A program made the translations under genes and the position numbers. From Lachnospiraceae bacterium (GTDB lineage Bacteria; Bacillota; Clostridia; Lachnospirales; Lachnospiraceae), in assembly GCA_022763925.1 (NCBI GenBank), contig JALERW010000084.1, positions 1 to 64,000 on the forward strand: a stretch of 64,000 bases of DNA. The letters are read 5' to 3'. Shown here one piece after another: positions 23,103 to 34,399 of the stretch (within the stretch, counting starts at the first letter, position 1; every line of letters starts with the position of its first letter). The notes under the pieces are model-generated. The model saw only the letters and a list, made by a program, of their open reading frames with translations. It made no database searches and was not told the origin of the DNA.

Positions 23103-23279
23103 ACGAATGGAATTATCCTGGGATGTTCGATACCCTGCAATTTTGAACCTACATTTACTTTTATGGGATTCCAAGATCGCTTGGTTGGATGCCAGGCCTC
23201 CTTTGTAGTGGAAGGCAGAAGACAAGTTGAGGTTACCCACCTAGCCTGGGCTAGGAGTCAAAATAGCAGGAAACGGCAT
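23103..23279 (+). ncRNA. ssrS: 6S RNA (ssrS-type) candidate
   Basis: Resembles the clostridial 6S pattern TCCTGGGATGTTCG...CCTGCAATTTTGAACCTACATTT...GTAGTGGAAGGC...AGGTTACCCACCTAGCCTGGGCTAGGAGTCAAAATAGCAGGA; closing stem TCCTG/CAGGA; own promoter and terminator, no credible ORF. Confidence 0.8.
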
Positions 23280-23297
23280 TTTGGGTGTACAAAAGAT

Positions 23298-23377: not shown

Positions 23378-25396
23378 TTGAAAGGTAGCAGATTGTATCG
23401 AAGACAGCTTTTATGGATTCTTCTGCTTCTGTGCGCGGCGTTGGTGCTGAAGCTTCTGAAGCTGACAGAGAATCGGGGCGGAAAACAGCCGGAGAATGGA
23501 CAGGAGGAAAGCAGCCAGGGGGAGCAGGGGCAGAAAGCAAAGCTTTTCATACTGGGAACCTCAGAGAATGTGGATGGCCTTGCAGAGGACCTTGTACTGA
23601 CGGATCAGGGAGTTTTCCGAACCAGACTGGATGTTTCCGGTTTCCCCGGACGCAGGGCAGAGGCGGAGCTTTCGGATAAGACAGAAGATGGCTATGAGGT
23701 GATTTCCGGGATCCGGGCGCTGCCTTCGGAAGAGTTCTGGCTGAATAATGTTTACATACTGGATGCCCGGCCGGATGGTCTAACGGTGCTGATTGAAAAC
23801 TATCCTGTTCGTCTTGCGGGAGCCATGGACGGCTCCTATGATTATGAGCATGTGGCGGATATCTGCCTTACGGACGGAGCGGTTCATGCTGTCCGGATAA
23901 AGAAAGAGACGATCAGGGGAAGGATTCTTTCGGTATATGATGATAAAATCGAGCTGGAGGGCTATGGAGTGCTTCCGCTTTCAGAGGATTTTCGGATTTA
24001 TGAGGATTATGAGACACCCAGAGAGCTGGATGCTTCCCGGCTGGTGGTGGGATATGATATTGCCGAATTTATTGCTGCGGACGGAATGATCTGTGCAGGC
24101 ATCGTAAAGGCGCCTCCGGATATGACAAGGATTCGTGTTGTTATCGGACGTACGGGATATACAGGGCTGATGCATGAGGAAATACGGATCGTTCCGGAAG
24201 GTGACGTGACCATGGTGACCGGGGATGGTGAGGAGAAAATTCCGGCAGGAGAGGAGCTCGTTTTTCGTCCGGAGTATCTGGATATGGAAGAGCGTATCCG
24301 GCTGATCCCGGATGAAGAGGACGGAAGAATGAAGGTGCTGTCTGTGGAACGAAGTCTTGGAAATCCGGAATATTCCGGGATTCTGGAGGTGAATCGAAGG
24401 GAAGACGGGCTTCTTCTCGTAAACGAGGTGGGACTTGAGGTTTATCTGTGTTCAGTTGTGCCCAGTGAGATGCCCTCGTCCTATGAGCCGGAGGCATTAA
24501 AGGCCCAGGCCGTGTGCGCGAGAAGCTATGCCTTTTGCCAGATCCGGGAAAGTCGGTATCAGGCCTATGGTGCCCATGTGGATGACAGCGTCAGCAGTCA
24601 GGTATATAATAATGTTCCCCGCACGGAGGCTTCCACAAGGGCCGTTTATGATACGGCAGGAGAGGTGGCGGTTTATGATAATGAAGTGATCACTGCTTAT
24701 TATTTTTCCACCTCCTGCGGCTGTACCACATCGGCAGAGGTGTGGGGAAGGGATGCACAGCTGCCCTATCTGAAATCCCGTCAGGTGTCCGATGAAAACG
24801 GAACGGATTATGAGAGCGGCTTAAGCTGGTACCGATGGAGCACTGCAGGAAACGGGGAGGCATATAGGAATGGGATCCTTATGCGTGTGAGTGCGCTGGC
24901 GCAGAGCGCGCCGGAAACCGTGAAGGTGAAGAGGAAGGACGGAAGCTACGGCGACGGAGCGGTACCAACACTGGGGGACATCACCGATATCCGGGAAGGA
25001 GAACGGATGGAAGGGGGAGCCTTGTTTTCTCTTTATATTGACGGAACAAAAGGCTCTGTCCGGATCGATACGGAATATGCTGTCCGGAAAGTGCTCTGTG
25101 AAAGCGGGATGGAAATCCTCCGGCAGGATGAAAGCACCGTAAAGGCAGGAACGCTTCTTCCCAGCGCTTTTTTCGTCCTGACGCGGGAGCAGAAGGATGG
25201 GATGCTGAACACTCTTCGGATCGAAGGCGGAGGCTACGGACACGGAGTCGGCCTGAGCCAGAATGGGGCGAATGCCATGGCTGCGGAGGGAAAAGGATAT
25301 CAGGAAATTCTGAATTTTTTTTATGACGGGATAGCTGTTGAAAAAATGAAGGACGCCTTTTTGATGTGTTGCGTTTTGGAGGAAAATAAGATATGA
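23378..25396 (+). CDS. SpoIID/LytB-domain protein with long N-terminal extension
   Basis: TTG start after aaggagg; N-term TM; LEVYLCSVVPSEMPSSYEPEALKAQAVCARSYA, YFSTSCGCTTSAEVWG, GGGYGHGVGLSQNGANAMA. Confidence 0.9.
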   Translation: MKGSRLYRRQLLWILLLLCAALVLKLLKLTENRGGKQPENGQEESSQGEQGQKAKLFILGTSENVDGLAEDLVLTDQGVFRTRLDVSGFPGRRAEAELSDKTEDGYEVISGIRALPSEEFWLNNVYILDARPDGLTVLIENYPVRLAGAMDGSYDYEHVADICLTDGAVHAVRIKKETIRGRILSVYDDKIELEGYGVLPLSEDFRIYEDYETPRELDASRLVVGYDIAEFIAADGMICAGIVKAPPDMTRIRVVIGRTGYTGLMHEEIRIVPEGDVTMVTGDGEEKIPAGEELVFRPEYLDMEERIRLIPDEEDGRMKVLSVERSLGNPEYSGILEVNRREDGLLLVNEVGLEVYLCSVVPSEMPSSYEPEALKAQAVCARSYAFCQIRESRYQAYGAHVDDSVSSQVYNNVPRTEASTRAVYDTAGEVAVYDNEVITAYYFSTSCGCTTSAEVWGRDAQLPYLKSRQVSDENGTDYESGLSWYRWSTAGNGEAYRNGILMRVSALAQSAPETVKVKRKDGSYGDGAVPTLGDITDIREGERMEGGALFSLYIDGTKGSVRIDTEYAVRKVLCESGMEILRQDESTVKAGTLLPSAFFVLTREQKDGMLNTLRIEGGGYGHGVGLSQNGANAMAAEGKGYQEILNFFYDGIAVEKMKDAFLMCCVLEENKI

Positions 25397-25444
25397 TAGG
25401 CGCAGCAGGAAAATGATTTCTATTGTGTACAGAGGAGAATGGGA

Positions 25445-26350
25445 ATGAAAACATTCAGATTTCTATATCGAATGCTGATGGATTTCATCAAGCGGATGGG
25501 AGAGGACCATGTGAGCGCATATGCGGCACAGACGGCTTATTTTACCATGCTTTCCTTCATTCCCATCATCATGCTGCTGCTGGCACTTATGAAATATACG
25601 CCGGTGAGTGAGGCCATGATACAGAAGGTTTTTTCGGAAAATGTGCCCGGAGCTGTTTATCCGATGATCCTGGGGATTATCGATGATGTGTATAACCGTT
25701 CCACCAGTCTCATTCCAGTGACGGCGATTGCCACTGCCTGGTCTGCCGGAAAGGGCGTTCTGGCGATGACCAGAGGCTTCAACTGTATATACAAGGTAAA
25801 TGAGACACGTAATTATATTGCGCTTCGGCTTCGTTCTGCGGTGTATACTGTGCTGCTTATTGCATCGGTGGTGCTCAGCCTGTCCATCATGGTGTTCGGC
25901 AATCAGCTGCATGAGCTGTTTCGCGGACGTTTTCCGGTTCTGGAACAGATTACCGCATGTATCATCAGCTTCCGAACCCTTCTGATGCTGGGAGTTCTGG
26001 TATTATTCTTCACCTTTATATACCGGTTTCTTCCGAACCGGAGGGCGGCGATCCTTCTTCAGGTGCCCGGAGCCATGTTTACGGCGGCCGCATGGTCCGG
26101 TTTTTCCTTTTTCTTCTCCATTTATGTGGATCAGTACAGCAATTACTCCCGTACCTACGGAAGTCTTACTACGCTGATCATCGTGATGCTTTGGCTCTAT
26201 GCCTGTATGTATATCGTAATGATCGGAGCTGCCATCAATTCTTATTATGAAGGAAAATTCCGTGAAATGCGGGAGAGAGCCAGAAGGAAAAAATTCATCC
26301 GGAGGGAAGCGAGAAGACTGGAGGAATCCGAAGAAGGTGCAAAAGTGTAA
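25445..26350 (+). CDS. YihY/BrkB family integral membrane protein
   Basis: AYAAQTAYFTMLSFIPIIMLLLALM, ATAWSAGKGVLAMTRGFN, six TM; agaggag RBS 7 bp from ATG. Confidence 0.9.
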   Translation: MKTFRFLYRMLMDFIKRMGEDHVSAYAAQTAYFTMLSFIPIIMLLLALMKYTPVSEAMIQKVFSENVPGAVYPMILGIIDDVYNRSTSLIPVTAIATAWSAGKGVLAMTRGFNCIYKVNETRNYIALRLRSAVYTVLLIASVVLSLSIMVFGNQLHELFRGRFPVLEQITACIISFRTLLMLGVLVLFFTFIYRFLPNRRAAILLQVPGAMFTAAAWSGFSFFFSIYVDQYSNYSRTYGSLTTLIIVMLWLYACMYIVMIGAAINSYYEGKFREMRERARRKKFIRREARRLEESEEGAKV

Positions 26351-26466: not shown

Positions 26467-27024
26467 CTACAGGATCGCTCCCTGGTCCGTCTCCTGTTTG
26501 TTCTCCTTCAGATAGTCTGCAATATAGCTGGAAACTTCCGGGACATCAAAGGGGACATCTCCCAGAATCTCCCGAAATTCCCTGGTATCCAGATGAAAGG
26601 ATTTCTGATCATAGGTATAGGTAAAAAGAAAGTCCGTACCGGGATTGAAAACGATCAGGGTATGGATGGTTCCGCATATGTCTCCCAGGGGCATGCGGTC
26701 AATGTGGCTGAGGCCAAAGTCTGCCTGGACGATGGTTCCCTTGCCGGGTCTGGACCATATGGAGAAATCTCCTCCGGCGCTCTCGGCAGCCATTTTGAAA
26801 AAGGGAATGCCAAGTCCCACTTTACGGGTCGTACGGGTGGTAAAGAACGGATCCTCTGCATGGGCCAGCTGCTCCGGTGTCATGCCGCAGCCGTCATCCC
26901 CTATGAATACCCGGAGCCGGTCTGCAGCGGTATCTATCGTTACATCAATGGTGACGAGGCTGGCAGAGGCTCTTATGGAATTTTCTGCAATATCCAGAAT
27001 ATTTAAAGAAATCTCGGTCATCAT
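26467..27024 (-). CDS. HATPase_c (histidine-kinase-like) ATP-binding protein
   Basis: LNILDIAENSIRA (N-box), FIGDDGCGMT (G1), RKVGLGIPFFKMAAESAGG (G2). Confidence 0.85.
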   Translation of the reverse strand: MMTEISLNILDIAENSIRASASLVTIDVTIDTAADRLRVFIGDDGCGMTPEQLAHAEDPFFTTRTTRKVGLGIPFFKMAAESAGGDFSIWSRPGKGTIVQADFGLSHIDRMPLGDICGTIHTLIVFNPGTDFLFTYTYDQKSFHLDTREFREILGDVPFDVPEVSSYIADYLKENKQETDQGAIL

Positions 27025-27157
27025 AAGGCATCTTTGTTCCTTCCTTCGTTATTGTGTTTCATTATAGCATTTTCAGGGATAAAAAGCTATTATTACTTTG
27101 AAAATGTTATCCGGCATGTTATAATAGCGAAAGATATTAATGCGGGGAGGAAAAGGG

Positions 27158-27514
27158 ATGTTACTGATAAACGTTCAAGAGCTGCTTCATGCGACCGCAC
27201 TTTGCGGAGAAGATTACCTGCAGAACTATGATGTGAAATCGGTCTATGCGTCCGATATGATGAGTGATGTGCTTGCACAGGTTAAGGGACATCCTTTGCT
27301 TCTTACCGGTCTGTGCAATCCGCAGGTGATCCGGACGGCTGAGATGGTGGACATTTCCTGCGTGGTCTTTGTACGCGGAAAATCTCCGGACGAGCATATC
27401 CTTGAGCTGGCAAAGGATGGGCTTCTTTGTGTGCTGAGAACAGATCTTACCATGTTTGAGGCATGTGGAATCCTTTATCAGGCAGGCTTGTGTGGAGGTG
27501 ATGAAATTGAGTGA
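27158..27514 (+). CDS. DRTGG-domain protein (copy 1)
   Basis: 118 aa; domain architecture and context typical of clostridial hydrogenase-associated DRTGG proteins. Confidence 0.7.
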   Translation: MLLINVQELLHATALCGEDYLQNYDVKSVYASDMMSDVLAQVKGHPLLLTGLCNPQVIRTAEMVDISCVVFVRGKSPDEHILELAKDGLLCVLRTDLTMFEACGILYQAGLCGGDEIE

Positions 27515-27950
27515 CAGCATTATGACACTGAAGTACAGGGTGAGCGCAGATGATTTCAAATCAGCTGGAGAGGCCAGCAGTGATGTGAAGAATAAGCTGA
27601 AGAAAATGGGGTTTCCACCGGAGGTTGTGCGAAAGGTCGCCATTTCCATGTATGAGGGTGAGATCAACATGGTCATTCATGCCAACGGCGGTGAGATTAC
27701 GGTGGATATCACCATGGATGAGATCATTATTGTGCTTCAGGATGTCGGACCCGGAATTAAGGATATCGACAAGGCAATGCAGGCCGGATATTCCACCGCT
27801 TCGGATCAGATCCGTTCCCTGGGCTTCGGAGCAGGCATGGGACTTCCGAACATGAAGAAATATTCCGATGATATGAAAATAGAGACAACGCTGGGCGTTG
27901 GAACAACGGTAACGCTTGTCATAAAGCTGCAGCCACAAAGCCATGTATGA
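27501..27950 (+). CDS. Anti-sigma-factor-like HATPase (RsbW/SpoIIAB family); start ambiguous between ATG 27501 and TTG 27507
   Basis: YEGEINMVIHANGGEITVDI (N-box), QDVGPGIKDIDKAMQAGYSTASDQIRSLGFGAGMGLPNMKKYSD. Confidence 0.88.
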   Translation: MKLSDSIMTLKYRVSADDFKSAGEASSDVKNKLKKMGFPPEVVRKVAISMYEGEINMVIHANGGEITVDITMDEIIIVLQDVGPGIKDIDKAMQAGYSTASDQIRSLGFGAGMGLPNMKKYSDDMKIETTLGVGTTVTLVIKLQPQSHV

Positions 27951-27979
27951 GGAGAAGACACAGAGAGAGGAATTAGATA

Positions 27980-29434
27980 ATGGATAAGTTTTTTCATTCT
28001 GTATATCTGGAGGAGAAAAATTGTACGGGCTGTTATAACTGTATCAAGCGATGTCCGACCGGTGCGATCCGGGTACGGGACGGGAAAGCCCGGGTGATCA
28101 ATAAATACTGTATCGACTGCGGGGAATGTGTCCGTTCCTGCAAGCAGCATGCCAAATCCTCGAAGAGAAACAAGCTGAAGGGAGACCTGGTGGGAAAGTT
28201 CGACTACATGGTTGCCCTGCCGTCCCAGGCGCTGTACAGTCAGTTTCAGCATCTGGAGGATGTGGATATCCTTCTTACGGCTCTGAAGCTGATGGGCTTT
28301 GATGATATTGTGGAGGTGTCCAGTGCTGCGGAGGTGCTCACGGAAAAGACCAAGCAATACATCCGGGAGCATGAGGATCTGTGGCCGATCATCAGTACTG
28401 CCTGTCCTACGGTGCTGCGGCTTATTCGGGTTCGTTTCCCGAATCTGATCGATCATCTGCTTCCGTTCCATATTCCCGCAGAGGTAGCTGCCCGTACCGC
28501 AAGAAAGAAGGCTATGAGAGAGACCGGACTTTCGTCGGAAAAGATAGGAATTGTCTACATCGCGCCCTGTCCCTCCAAGGTCAGTTATGTGCAGGCCCCG
28601 ATGGGAACGGAGAAGAGTGAGATCGATGTGGTGCTGGCCATTAAGGATATCTACCGTATTATCCTTCCCTATCTGACCGAGGCCCAGAAGCAGGTGCAGC
28701 ATCTTCGAAAAGGAGGCAGCACCGGAATTGCCTGGGGAAGAAGCGGCGGTGAAGCGCGCTCCCTGGGAGAGAAGGATTATATTGCGGCGGACGGCATTTT
28801 AAGTGTCATCAACGTCCTGGAGGACCTGGAGGATGAAAAGTTTGAAAAGGTTCCGTTCATTGAGCTGAACGCCTGTGACGGCGGCTGTGTGGGCGGTGTG
28901 CTGAATATTGAAAATCCGTTTGTGGCAAGGGCCAAGATCCTGAAGCTGGGGAAGGAACTTCCCGAGACAGCTTTGGAGGATATGCTTGCGGTGGAAGAGG
29001 AAGATATTCTCTGGAACAGCAAAGTGGAGTATGAACCGGTGTTCCAGCTGGGAAGCAGTTTCATGGAGAGCATCTCTCTGATGAAGCAGGTGGATGAGCT
29101 GCAGAAGAAATTTCCCGGACTGGACTGCGGCTGCTGCGGGGCTCCCTCCTGCCGGGCGCTGGCGGAGGATATCGTCCGAGGCGTGGCGACCGAAAATGCC
29201 TGTATCCATATTCTGAAGGACCGGCTGCATCTTCTGTCCAGATATGCAAGGGAATTTGCCAACAATGAAGTGGTAACAGAAGAAAATGTGAAGGAATACA
29301 TCGATACGGCGCGTCAGTATATCAACAAAATGTCCATGGATATTGCAAAGCTGGATGATACCATCGGGGTAAAACCGCAGCCGGAGCAGAAAACACCTCT
29401 GAAAGAGGATCTGGAGGAGGAATCCGGATCCTGA
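27980..29434 (+). CDS. [FeFe]-hydrogenase large-subunit-like protein with 2x[4Fe-4S] N-term and FeS (CxxC...) C-terminal domain; putative sensory type
   Basis: CTGCYNCIKRCP, CIDCGECVRSC; degenerate H-cluster motifs STACPTV, APCPSK, ELNACDGGCVGG; C-term LDCGCCGAPSCRALAEDIVRG. Confidence 0.88.
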   Translation: MDKFFHSVYLEEKNCTGCYNCIKRCPTGAIRVRDGKARVINKYCIDCGECVRSCKQHAKSSKRNKLKGDLVGKFDYMVALPSQALYSQFQHLEDVDILLTALKLMGFDDIVEVSSAAEVLTEKTKQYIREHEDLWPIISTACPTVLRLIRVRFPNLIDHLLPFHIPAEVAARTARKKAMRETGLSSEKIGIVYIAPCPSKVSYVQAPMGTEKSEIDVVLAIKDIYRIILPYLTEAQKQVQHLRKGGSTGIAWGRSGGEARSLGEKDYIAADGILSVINVLEDLEDEKFEKVPFIELNACDGGCVGGVLNIENPFVARAKILKLGKELPETALEDMLAVEEEDILWNSKVEYEPVFQLGSSFMESISLMKQVDELQKKFPGLDCGCCGAPSCRALAEDIVRGVATENACIHILKDRLHLLSRYAREFANNEVVTEENVKEYIDTARQYINKMSMDIAKLDDTIGVKPQPEQKTPLKEDLEEESGS

Positions 29435-29495
29435 AGGATAGTCTGAATGATAATGATTGCGGCTGCCCGGGCAGCTGGCGGGGAAGGAAACGTAT

Positions 29496-29831
29496 ATGAC
29501 AGTCAGAGAATTAGCAGAGAAAAATATATTTGAACTGATTAATATGGGAGATCAGCCGGAGGCGAGGATCAGCAAGCCGTTCTGCTGTGATCTTCTGAGT
29601 GTTGCCATGGGGAAAGCGCCGGCCGGGGGCTGCTGGGTAACGGTGATGGCAAACATCAATACACTGGCGGTGGCAGCGCTTACAGAGGCGTCCTGTATCG
29701 TGCTTGCAGAGGGCATGAAGCTGGATGAGACATGTATTCAGAAGGCTGCACAGCAGGGAATCACGGTATTTGCGGTGAATGAACCGATTTTTGATACGGC
29801 ACTGAAGGTACAGAAGCTTCTCGATGCTTAG
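29496..29831 (+). CDS. DRTGG-domain protein (copy 2)
   Basis: 111 aa, TVRELAEKNIFELINMGDQPEARISKPFCCDLLSVAMGKAPAGGCWVTV; ggggaagg RBS. Confidence 0.72.
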   Translation: MTVRELAEKNIFELINMGDQPEARISKPFCCDLLSVAMGKAPAGGCWVTVMANINTLAVAALTEASCIVLAEGMKLDETCIQKAAQQGITVFAVNEPIFDTALKVQKLLDA

Positions 29832-30546
29832 GATCAGCTACGACCTGCATATCCATTCCTGCCTTTCCCCATGCGGGGATGAGGATATGACACCGGCTAA
29901 TATCGTGGGAATGGCGGCCATAAAGGGGCTGGATGTGATTGCACTGACCGATCATAATTCCTGCAAAAACTGTCCGGCAGTTATGAAATTCGCCGAAAAA
30001 TACGGTGTGACCGTGATCCCCGGTATGGAGCTTACCACACAGGAGGAGGTTCATGTGCTCTGCCTGTTTGCCGGGCTTTCGGATGCCATGCGGTTTGATA
30101 CATATGTATATGAGCATCTGATGCCGTTTCCGAACCGGGAGGATATCTTCGGACGGCAGCTGATTTATAATGAGAAGGATGAGATTTCCGGAAAAGTGGA
30201 ACATCTTTTGATCAACAGTACGGATATCTCCTTTGATTATGTTCCGGAGATCGTCGAGCGCTTCGGAGGAATTATGATTCCTGCACACATTGAAAAAAGC
30301 TCCAACAGCCTTCTTCATAACCTTGGTTTCGTTCCGCCCGACAGCCGGTTTCGCTGTGTGGAGGTGGAGGACAGAGCGCATGCGCCAAAGCTGAGAGAAC
30401 AGAATCCTTATCTGAAGGAATGCCGGATCATCTGCAATTCCGATGCACATTATCTGGACCGCATTCACGAGCGGGAGGAATTTCTTGAAATCAGGTCCCT
30501 GAAGCCTTCAGATATCCTGGCTGCCCTGACCGGAGAGGAAGGCTGA
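29824..30546 (+). CDS. PHP-domain phosphoesterase
   Basis: DLHIHSCLSPCGDEDMT, ALTDHNS, GMELTTQEEVHVL, IPAHIEK, NSDAHYLD. Confidence 0.9.
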   Translation: MLRISYDLHIHSCLSPCGDEDMTPANIVGMAAIKGLDVIALTDHNSCKNCPAVMKFAEKYGVTVIPGMELTTQEEVHVLCLFAGLSDAMRFDTYVYEHLMPFPNREDIFGRQLIYNEKDEISGKVEHLLINSTDISFDYVPEIVERFGGIMIPAHIEKSSNSLLHNLGFVPPDSRFRCVEVEDRAHAPKLREQNPYLKECRIICNSDAHYLDRIHEREEFLEIRSLKPSDILAALTGEEG

Positions 30547-30562: not shown

Positions 30563-30592
30563 TTGACAAGGAACCCGGGGTGTGGGTATAAT
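30563..30592 (+). promoter_or_regulatory. Promoter for pheST T-box transcript
   Basis: TTGACA-18 bp-TATAAT. Confidence 0.75.
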
Positions 30593-30939: not shown

Positions 30940-31959
30940 ATGAGAGAGAAGCTTAACAGCATCAGAGAAGAAGCGCTGAAGCAGATTCAGGCCTCCGATG
31001 CCCTGGAGAAACTGAATGATGTAAGAGTTGCCTTCCTTGGGAAAAAGGGAGAGCTGACGGCTGTACTTAAGAGCATGAAGGATGTGGATGCGAAGGAACG
31101 TCCGATCATCGGCCAGATGGTCAATGAGACACGGGCGGAAATCGAGAAGGCGCTGGAGGAGACGAAAAAGCGCATGGAGGAGGCCATCCGTGAGGAACGG
31201 CTGAAAAATGAAGTGATTGATGTAACGCTCCCGGCAAGGAAGAACAATGTGGGACACCGTCATCCGAATACGATCGCGCTGGAAGAGGTGGAACGTATTT
31301 TTGTCGGTATGGGCTATGAGGTTGTGGAAGGCCCTGAGGTGGAATATGATCTGTACAATTTTGAAAAATTGAACATTCCTGCCAATCATCCGGCAAAGGA
31401 TGAGCAGGATACTTTTTATATCAATAAGGATATTGTGCTTCGTACCCAGACATCTCCGGTACAGGCGCGTATCATGGAGCAGGGAAAGCTTCCGATCCGT
31501 ATGATCGCTCCGGGAAGAGTATTCCGTGCCGACGAGGTGGATGCCACCCATTCTCCGTCCTTCCATCAGATTGAAGGACTGGTTGTGGATAAGAACATTA
31601 CTTTTGCAGACCTGAAGGGAACGCTGGAGGTATTTGCCAAGGAGCTGTTCGGTGAGAACACAAAGACCAAATTCCGTCCGCACCATTTCCCGTTCACAGA
31701 GCCCAGTGCAGAGATGGATGTAAGCTGCTTCAAATGCGGAGGCAAGGGCTGCCGATTCTGCAAAGGTGAAGGCTGGATCGAGATCCTGGGCTGCGGTATG
31801 GTACACCCGCATGTATTTGAGATGTGCGGTATTGATCCTGAGGAGTATACCGGCTTTGCGTTCGGTGTGGGCCTGGAGCGTATAGCGCTTCTGAAATATG
31901 AGATTGATGACATGAGACTGCTGTATGAGAATGACATGCGGTTCCTGAAACAGTTCTAG
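30940..31959 (+). CDS. pheS: Phenylalanyl-tRNA synthetase alpha subunit
   Basis: [59 protein letters not shown]. Confidence 0.97.
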
Positions 31960-31978
31960 GAGAGGGAGGAAACATACG

Positions 31979-34399
31979 ATGAATACGTCTTTAGCATGGT
32001 TAAAAGCCTATGTTCCGGATCTGGATGTGGAGGCGCAGGAGTTTGCGGACGCCATGACCCTGTCCGGTTCCAAGGTGGAAGGATATGAGAAGAAGGATGA
32101 GGATCTGGAAAAGATCGTGATCGGCCAGATCCTGAAGATTGAGAAACACCCGGATGCGGATAAGCTGATCATCTGTCAGGTGGACGTGGGTGCCGGAACT
32201 CCTCTGCAGATTGTGACCGGAGCACCCAATGTAAAGGAAGGGGATAAGGTTCCCGTTGTTCTGGACGGAGGTAAGGTCGCCGGAGGACACGACGGAAAGA
32301 TGACGCCGGGAGGAATCAGGATCAAGAAAGGAAAGCTGCGCGGTGTGGAATCCAACGGTATGCTCTGTTCCATTGAGGAGCTGGGCTCCACCAGAGATAT
32401 GTATCCGGAGGCTCCGGAATCCGGTATTTACATTTTCGGTGAGGATGCGGTTGTCGGGGAAAATGCGGTAAAAGCCCTTGGCCTGGATGATGTGGTAGTA
32501 GAGTATGAGATCACCTCCAACCGTGTGGACTGCTTCTCCGTTGTGGGACTTGCCAGAGAAGCGGCAGCAACCTTCCGGAAGGATTTCTTTCCGCCTGTGA
32601 TTACTCCGACGGGAAACAGTGAAAATGTCAATGATTATATAAAAGTAACCGTGAAGGATACGGACCTGTGTCCCAGATACTGTGCGAGAGTTGTGAAAAA
32701 TATCAGGATTGCTCCGTCTCCGGTATGGATGCAGCGCCGTCTGGCAGCTCACGGAATCCGTCCCATTAACAATATTGTGGATATCACCAATTATGTGATG
32801 GAAGAATTCGGACAGCCGATGCATGCGTATGATCTGGATACGATCGCAGGCCATGAAATTATTGTACGAAGAGGGGAGGATGGAGAAAAATTTGTTACAC
32901 TGGACGGACAGGAACGTCAGGTGGACAGCTCTGTCCTGATGATCTGTGATGCGGATAAAGCGGTAGGTATCGCCGGAATCATGGGAGGAGAGAACTCCAT
33001 GATCACAGATCACGTACAGACAATGCTCTTTGAGGCTGCGTGCTTCGACGGTACAAACATCCGTCTTTCCAGCAAAAAAGTCGGACTTCGTACCGATGCT
33101 TCCGGAAAGTTCGAAAAAGGACTGGATCCGAATACCGCACTGGATGCCATCAACCGTGCCTGCCAGCTGGTTGAGGAGCTGGGAGCCGGAGAAGTGGTGG
33201 GAGGAGTTGTGGATGTGTACAGCAGAGTCCGCACCGGAAACCGTGTTCCTTTTGATCCGGAATACGTGAACCGCCTTCTGGGAACGGATATTGACCGCGA
33301 AACGATGATCGGTTATTTTAAGAAGATCGACCTGGGCTTCGATGAAAAGACCTCTGAGGTAATTGTTCCTTCCTGGAGACAGGATCTTCTCCGTCCGGCG
33401 GATCTGGCAGAGGAAGTGGCAAGATTCTACGGCTATGACAATATACCGACCACGCTGCCCTCCGGAGAAGCTACCACCGGAAAGCTGAGCTTTAAGATGA
33501 GGATCGAGGCAATTGCCAGAGATATTGCGGAATTCTGCGGCTTCAGCCAGGGGATGACCTATTCCTTTGAAAGCCCGAAGGTGTTCGACCGGCTTCGGAT
33601 TCCCGAAGACTGCAGTCTCAGAAATGTGGTTACGATCTCCAACCCTCTGGGTGAGGACTTCAGCATTATGAGAACCACTTCTCTGAATGGTATGCTGACC
33701 TCTCTTGCAACCAATTACAACCGCAGAAACAAAAATGTGCGGCTGTATGAGCTGGGAAATATTTACCTTCCGAAGCAGCTGCCCCTTACGGAGCTTCCCG
33801 AGGAGCGGATGCAGTTCACTCTTGGCATGTACGGGGATGGCGATTTCTATACCATGAAAGGGGTGGTGGAGGAATTCCTGGACAAGATCGGAATGAATAA
33901 AAAGGAAACCTACGATCCGAACGCGCAGAAGCCCTTCCTTCATCCCGGAAGACAGGCGAATATTGTGTATGATAAGACGGTGATCGGATTCCTGGGAGAG
34001 CTTCATCCGGAGGTGGCTGATACGTATGGAATCGGAGAACGCGCGTATATAGCTGTACTGGACATGCCGGCGATTCTTCCGTTTGCATCCTTCGACCGCA
34101 AGTATGAGGGAATTGCCAGATTCCCTGCAGTGACCCGTGATATTTCCATGGTAGTGCCGAAGGAAATTCTGGCCGGAGATATCGAGGCCGTGATCGAGCA
34201 GCGCGGCGGAAAGAATCTGGAGAGCTATCAGCTGTTCGATGTATATGAGGGAAGCCAGATTAAAGCGGGATATAAGTCTCTGGCATATTCCATCGTATTC
34301 CGTTCCAAAGAGAAGACATTGGAGGAAGCGGAGATTTCGGGAGCTATGAAGAAGATCCTGAAGGCACTGGAGTCCATGGGCATTGAACTGCGTCAGTAA
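31979..34399 (+). CDS. pheT: Phenylalanyl-tRNA synthetase beta subunit
   Basis: tRNA-binding domain [25 protein letters not shown]3/B4 and B5 domains, FDX-ACB C-term. Confidence 0.97.

Follow-up and report, generated by a model that had tools for sequence, protein, structure and literature searches.

Within a 64,000-nucleotide stretch of a Lachnospiraceae bacterium genome (GCA_022763925.1, contig JALERW010000084.1, positions 1–64,000; hereafter the window), we characterized a six-gene cassette located at 26467–30546, which associates a hydrogenase-like iron-sulfur protein (HydS) with two HATPase-domain proteins (HAT1 and HAT2), two DRTGG-domain proteins (DR1 and DR2) and a PHP-domain phosphoesterase (PHP). 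This cassette is a real, conserved system. With confidence evenly balanced between belief and doubt, we propose that its six genes encode an ATP-dependent signalling complex responding to H2 or redox state and serving ferredoxin- and NAD-linked electron-transfer machinery (HydABC, and Rnf in some lineages). At the sequence level, this proposal is supported by the H-cluster ligands and group D marks of HydS, by pairwise fusions of DR1, HAT2, HydS and DR2, and by their near-constant co-occurrence. An initial annotation of the same DNA, according to which the Fe-S protein senses H2 or redox state and relays it through kinase-like HATPases, was thus partly supported.

Conservation, gene fusions and genomic associations of the cassette

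All six open reading frames (ORFs) were recovered in the order and on the strands first described, with Pfam confirming their domains (DR2 falling just under the cut-off) and three gene starts being corrected. DR1-HAT2-HydS-DR2-PHP was collinear in 108 of the 117 related loci that made up our synteny sample, so this five-gene order does not result from chance, in agreement with the earlier view of one conserved functional unit. Among 300 genomes of the phylum, DR1 was present in 131, HAT2 in 126 and HydS in 120, all three occurring together in 118 (~39%), with Fisher p values, inflated by shared ancestry, of 5e-76 (DR1-HAT2), 6e-74 (HAT2-HydS) and 2e-68 (DR1-HydS). HAT1-type proteins were detected in 148 of 291 genomes of the class.

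Neighbours along this chain also occur as single proteins, and the natural fusion of such neighbours is standard evidence of physical or functional coupling. DR1 and HAT2 were joined in L303 and L315, HAT2 and HydS in L322 (626 aa), and HydS and DR2 in L295 and L323, the DRTGG part being recognised by Pfam at the threshold used in L323 and from tblastn and sequence in L295. HAT2 was also fused to CBS domains, with Pfam confirmation for L289 and L293 and from reading the sequence for L306, L307, L309 and L310. Cassettes devoid of HydS (L289, L293, L326 and L327) carried HAT2 fused to a CBS pair; L324 and L325 possessed both CBS-HAT2 and HydS, which weakened the idea that CBS simply takes the place of HydS. 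All these fused ORFs are taken as they stand in public assemblies. They bring the strongest new support for the postulated signalling from the Fe-S protein to a HATPase and refine it, pointing to HAT2 as the probable partner of HydS and setting HAT1 apart as a member that accompanies HydABC or Rnf operons.

In related genomes, the expected link to bifurcating hydrogenases was indeed observed: in 96 of the 117 loci HAT1 lay between hydC and the 2Fe-2S ferredoxin gene (fd) of a hydC-HAT1-fd-hydB-hydA operon, mostly divergent from the cassette. In the genus of the window (4/4 genomes), HAT1 directly adjoins DR1 with no HydABC there, the block being located after a BrkB-family gene and followed by pheST in the three genomes whose contigs extend that far. 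As already noted in the initial annotation, no catalytic bifurcating hydrogenase stands beside the cassette: the group A HydABC set of the same genome (hydC, 2Fe-2S fd, hydB and hydA) neighbours groEL on contig C107 and does not include HAT1. The HydABC copies of G000 and G202 (two copies) leave no room for it. Most simply, HydABC would have left the locus a single time while HAT1 remained beside the cassette; with HydABC elsewhere in this genus, any action of the complex on it would have to be in trans. HAT1 is also placed within a co-directional cassette in L202, and directly upstream of rnfC in L199, L200, L201, L203 and L204. In L205 (4.4–12.9 kb), DR1-HAT2-HydS-DR2-HAT1 runs straight into rnfCDGEAB, L324 being similar, and the cassettes of L289 and L293 are likewise at rnfCDGEAB.

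Sequence and structural features of the six proteins

HydS matched Fe_hyd_lg_C (PF02906) with 97.0 bits, as well as Fer4_10 (PF13237) and FeS (PF04060), and the Pfam scan found no PAS domain in it. Its relatives were retrieved with an alignment query, a contig scan with the single HydS protein giving no match. All four H-cluster cysteines are kept (C142, C197, C299 and C303, equivalent to C300, C355, C499 and C503 of CpI) and, together with K200, the lysine near the diiron site, were invariant in 109/109 relatives. The alignment delineated two N-terminal 4Fe-4S motifs (C15/18/21/25 and C44/47/50/54), and a C-terminal cluster motif follows the pattern Cx2Cx4Cx16C (C383-x2-C386-x4-C391-x16-C408), described for M2e and M2f enzymes (PMC8163306). 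The proton-transfer cysteine (CpI C299) is replaced by Ala141, and the CpI M497 position is occupied by Asn. Charged residues are conserved around the clusters of 70 group D sequences (R30, R32, K35, K58, D378, E392 and D393 in TamHydS of Thermoanaerobacter mathranii, with D403 nearby; PMC13104023); as mapped only by offset from the ligand cysteines, their putative counterparts R31, R33, K36, K59, D382, E396 and D397 are present in HydS and D403 would correspond to Ala407. At the CpI M353 position, HydS of the window has Ala195, against Ser/Thr in 108/109 relatives and Ser in three congeners, and so departs from the Ser/Thr that is typical of group D without defining it. We had regarded this alanine as unique to this protein, a view withdrawn because the clade members L282 and L299 also carry it.

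The AlphaFold model of HydS (mean pLDDT 72.5) matched [FeFe]-hydrogenase structures with a TM score of about 0.55 and an rmsd of about 5 Å, which supports the fold only. In a tree covering group A, group B, PAS-type and cassette sequences, from which TamHydS and TmHydS are absent, HydS branched inside the cassette-HydS clade (support 1.0), apart from the three other sets. We thus assign HydS to the group-D-like (M2e) putative sensory [FeFe]-hydrogenases, with predicted H-cluster binding, and the initial claim of an H-cluster-type protein of this class holds on the ligands and the group D marks. The same genome encodes HydF and HydG, both over the cut-off.

Across the genus, HydS deviates at 10–15 of the 131 positions that other species conserve (median 1, 95th percentile 6), including 13/131 in the window, through a mix of shared and independent changes, and no such clear excess appeared in the other cassette genes of the genus. 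This suggests a changed constraint on HydS after the separation from HydABC, as a correlation in a single clade.

Further hydrogenase-like proteins were encountered along the way. A group-B-like one is encoded by the same genome on C143, and a second one (580–583 aa, with a C-terminal Fe-S motif), outside the cassette HydS clade, lies near the cassette in L054 (9943–11691) and L055 (10053–11792). HydA of the bifurcating sets (L071 5899–7656 and many relatives) reads TSCSP where CpI reads TSCCP, the H-cluster ligand position C300 being Ser in nearly all bifurcating-set HydA of the tree.

Both HATPases contain HATPase_c, in line with the kinase-like nature first attributed to them. HAT1 (54.7 bits) shows a conserved C-terminal region IDR-P-GD (alignment A3); Pfam detected HATPase_c only, with no HisKA or dimerisation domain bearing a phospho-acceptor His, and a two-component histidine kinase was therefore rejected. 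HAT2 matched HATPase_c (41.1 bits) and HATPase_c_2 (34.3 bits), had SpoIIAB as its best PDB matches (1til, 1.2e-10), and kept the catalytic N-box Glu and Asn as the invariant E50 and N54. A true anti-sigma factor was rejected for HAT2, as it reached 56.1 bits against an NCBIfam cut-off of 135 and the cassette holds no sigma or STAS partner gene.

DR1 exceeded the DRTGG cut-off of 25.2 bits (29.7), and DR2, alignable with DR1, scored just below it (24.2). From its AlphaFold model (pLDDT 93.5) and Foldseek matches to 3l2b, 3l31 and 2ioj, DR1 can be confidently predicted to adopt a DRTGG fold related to the pyrophosphatase CBS-DRTGG region and the HPr kinase N-terminal domain. Both proteins carry a D-x-x-S motif (DMMSD in DR1, CDLLS in DR2), whose Asp33 and Ser36 were invariant across 29 DR1/DR2 sequences (alignment A2), with Ser36 of DR1 at a helix start. 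That this motif is specific to the DRTGG proteins of the cassette could not be shown, the AF1212 alignment being ambiguous there. PHP (41.3 bits, cut-off 26.4) gave no PDB sequence match, and its metal-ligand motifs DLHIH, TDH, E, EExH, PAH and SDAH were mostly retained across 102 sequences; SPCG stands in place of the usual S-D-G of the family.

Table 1. Coordinates of the cassette features in the window, and of HAT1-type genes preceding Rnf operons in related loci.
Feature	Position	Strand	Assignment	Evidence
HAT1	26467..27024	-	HATPase-only protein, no HisKA	Pfam, alignment A3, synteny
Sigma-70-like promoter, TTGAAA-16-TATAAT	27098..27125	+	Candidate promoter before DR1	Consensus scan
DR1	27158..27514	+	DRTGG-domain protein	Pfam, alignments, AlphaFold, Foldseek
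HAT2	27507..27950	+	SpoIIAB/RsbW-like GHKL ATPase	Pfam, PDB matches, alignment
HydS	27980..29434	+	Group-D-like putative sensory [FeFe]-hydrogenase	Pfam, alignment, conservation, fold, tree
DR2	29496..29831	+	Second DRTGG-type protein	Pfam, conservation, alignment
PHP	29824..30546	+	PHP-domain phosphoesterase	Pfam, conservation
HAT1-type gene, L199	4.7-10.4 kb		HATPase directly before rnfCDGEAB	
HAT1-type gene, L203	1.7-7.4 kb		HATPase directly before rnfCDGEAB	
HAT1-type gene, L204	10-15.5 kb		HATPase directly before rnfCDGEAB	

DR1 probably starts at 27158 and not at 27140, because the ATG at 27140 is upstream of the ribosome-binding site and the relatives align from 27158. The probable starts are 27501/27507 instead of 27456 for HAT2, whose 5′ part overlaps the end of DR1, and 29496 instead of 29457 for DR2, which overlaps PHP by 8 bp. 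The promoter-like site before DR1 fits 11/12 consensus positions with a TG extension, in a region with 7 sigma-70 consensus matches against 5.2 expected from shuffles, so that a promoter called from the consensus match is suggestive only and weak as evidence. The next strong promoter-like site (30563–30592, 12/12 sigma-70 match) is ahead of a T-box leader (RF00230, 30638–30859) located upstream of pheS-pheT (30940–34399). On the other side, a SpoIID-family gene (23378–25396) and a BrkB/YihY-family gene (25439–26350) flank the cassette, as they do at the same place in three congeners. A 6S RNA (RF00013) occupies 23112–23291, and the contig begins with a formate-dehydrogenase-like molybdopterin oxidoreductase with a NuoG-like Fe-S domain (4–2151).

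A candidate signalling mechanism and competing explanations

In the mechanism that we envisage, H2 binding or reduction at the H-cluster would change the conformation of HydS, which would in turn gate the SpoIIAB-like kinase HAT2. The likely targets of HAT2 would be the DRTGG proteins, with the invariant D-x-x-S serine, placed at a helix start, as the candidate site; PHP would act as an eraser, removing the phosphate or a small phosphorylated signal, and HAT1 would be the arm acting on HydABC or Rnf. We infer every one of these biochemical steps, from the gating of HAT2 and the phosphorylation of DRTGG proteins to the erasing by PHP and the output through HAT1. The retention of HAT1 with the cassette after HydABC had left also argues for this mechanism.

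Several points weigh against it. The phosphotransfer from the kinase to the DRTGG proteins is a conjecture, biochemistry on the cassette partners was not found in the open-access literature, and, according to Pfam, neither a sigma factor nor a STAS or DNA-binding protein belongs to the cassette. The CBS pair is not simply a substitute for HydS, and the Ala at the M353 equivalent, together with the 13/131 deviations, may mean that H2 sensing is altered in HydS of the window. Finally, H2 fails to reduce the C-terminal cluster in TamHydS (PMC13104023), which makes a simple electron relay to that cluster unlikely and favours a conformational relay. More speculatively, and rather doubtfully, the cassette could represent a new class of ATP-dependent switches, distinct both from two-component systems and from sigma-factor partner switching, in which a SpoIIAB-like kinase would respond to H2 through a sensory hydrogenase, to what are probably adenine nucleotides through a CBS pair, or to both, DRTGG substrates would replace STAS, and HydABC or Rnf would be set directly at the post-translational level.

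Alternatively, the cassette could control transcription, HydS and the HATPases acting on a regulator encoded elsewhere, of the sigma/anti-sigma or response-regulator type, which alters hydrogenase gene expression. HAT2 does resemble anti-sigma kinases, the PAS-type HydS of L295 forms one protein with PAS-HisKA-HATPase and neighbours a response regulator gene of apparently sigma54-dependent type, and the TamHydS gene adjoins an AraC-type regulator gene (PMC8163306); however, with no DNA-binding or sigma/STAS gene among the conserved members and a score far below the NCBIfam anti-sigma cut-off (56.1 vs 135), we consider transcriptional control unlikely. It is also improbable, in our opinion, that these proteins serve HydABC and Rnf as accessory factors, whether in assembly, in cofactor loading or structurally, instead of as signalling partners, although HAT1 is embedded in hydC-HAT1-fd-hydB-hydA, precedes rnfC, and may correspond to the HydD of A. 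woodii, whose hydrogenase has an extra cofactor-less subunit of that name (PMC6288185). The HydABC operons of the genus dispense with HAT1, which remains with the cassette, and an assembly role would leave the CBS input domain and the sensory-type hydrogenase unexplained. As for HydS being a working ferredoxin-linked hydrogenase whose catalysis is tuned by its neighbours, with no sensing on behalf of other proteins, the conserved H-cluster ligands and the turnover of H2 by TamHydS (PMC8163306) speak for it, but the Ala at the C299 position, the lack of known proton-transfer residues in group D (PMC8163306) and the cassettes that retain the other members without HydS make it highly improbable.

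Comparison with known systems

The association of hydrogenases with HATPases was known in part beforehand. Besides the AraC-type gene, the TamHydS gene adjoins that of a histidine-kinase-like ATPase, and its signal path has been called an open question (PMC8163306). Bifurcating hydrogenase genes of Thermoanaerobacter are preceded by genes for a group D-type hydrogenase and a histidine kinase (PMC3608648), and the range Cthe_0338-0342 of C. thermocellum includes Cthe_0339, whose annotation is histidine kinase (PMC3990059). The open-access literature yielded no description of the whole cassette including DRTGG and PHP proteins, of its fusions, of CBS inputs or of the link to Rnf, nor any relevant paper treating DRTGG together with hydrogenase; priority is uncertain, subscription papers being outside this scope. 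Likely physical partners in group D sensory hydrogenase signalling can be named from the DR1-HAT2-HydS-DR2 fusion chain, from the CBS alternative and from the association with Rnf, which makes the question of its signal transfer directly testable. Given how common the cassette is in the phylum, many anaerobes may have their balance of H2 and ferredoxin under its control.

HydS of the window shares with TamHydS, a group D (M2e) enzyme, the two N-terminal 4Fe-4S motifs, the H-domain, the Cx2Cx4Cx16C motif and the absence of PAS and C299. The two proteins differ at the M353 (Ala vs Ser) and M497 (Asn vs Leu) positions, and in the genus of TamHydS the group D-type gene stands beside the bifurcating hydrogenase genes (PMC3608648), whereas HydABC is not adjacent in the window. 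Group C (M2f) HydS proteins of T. maritima and R. albus are likewise putative H2 sensors with a C-terminal Fe-S domain, TmHydS also having Ala at C299 (PMC10055695), but they carry a PAS domain, which HydS of the window lacks, and PAS-type sequences fall into a different clade. The group C-like HydS of L295 (12143–14479) is fused to PAS-HisKA-HATPase, in a genome that also has a group D cassette, whereas the ATPases of the window are separate proteins without HisKA. HAT2 is of the same GHKL type as the SpoIIAB/RsbW kinases, with the catalytic Glu and Asn, but has no sigma or STAS gene nearby, its fusion partners being DRTGG, HydS and CBS domains. Lastly, the CBS-DRTGG region of Mn-dependent pyrophosphatase (3l2b/3l31) has a DRTGG fold like that of DR1 and likewise brings CBS pairs and DRTGG together in one system; the DRTGG proteins of the cassette, in contrast, stand alone, coupled to a HATPase and devoid of a pyrophosphatase domain.

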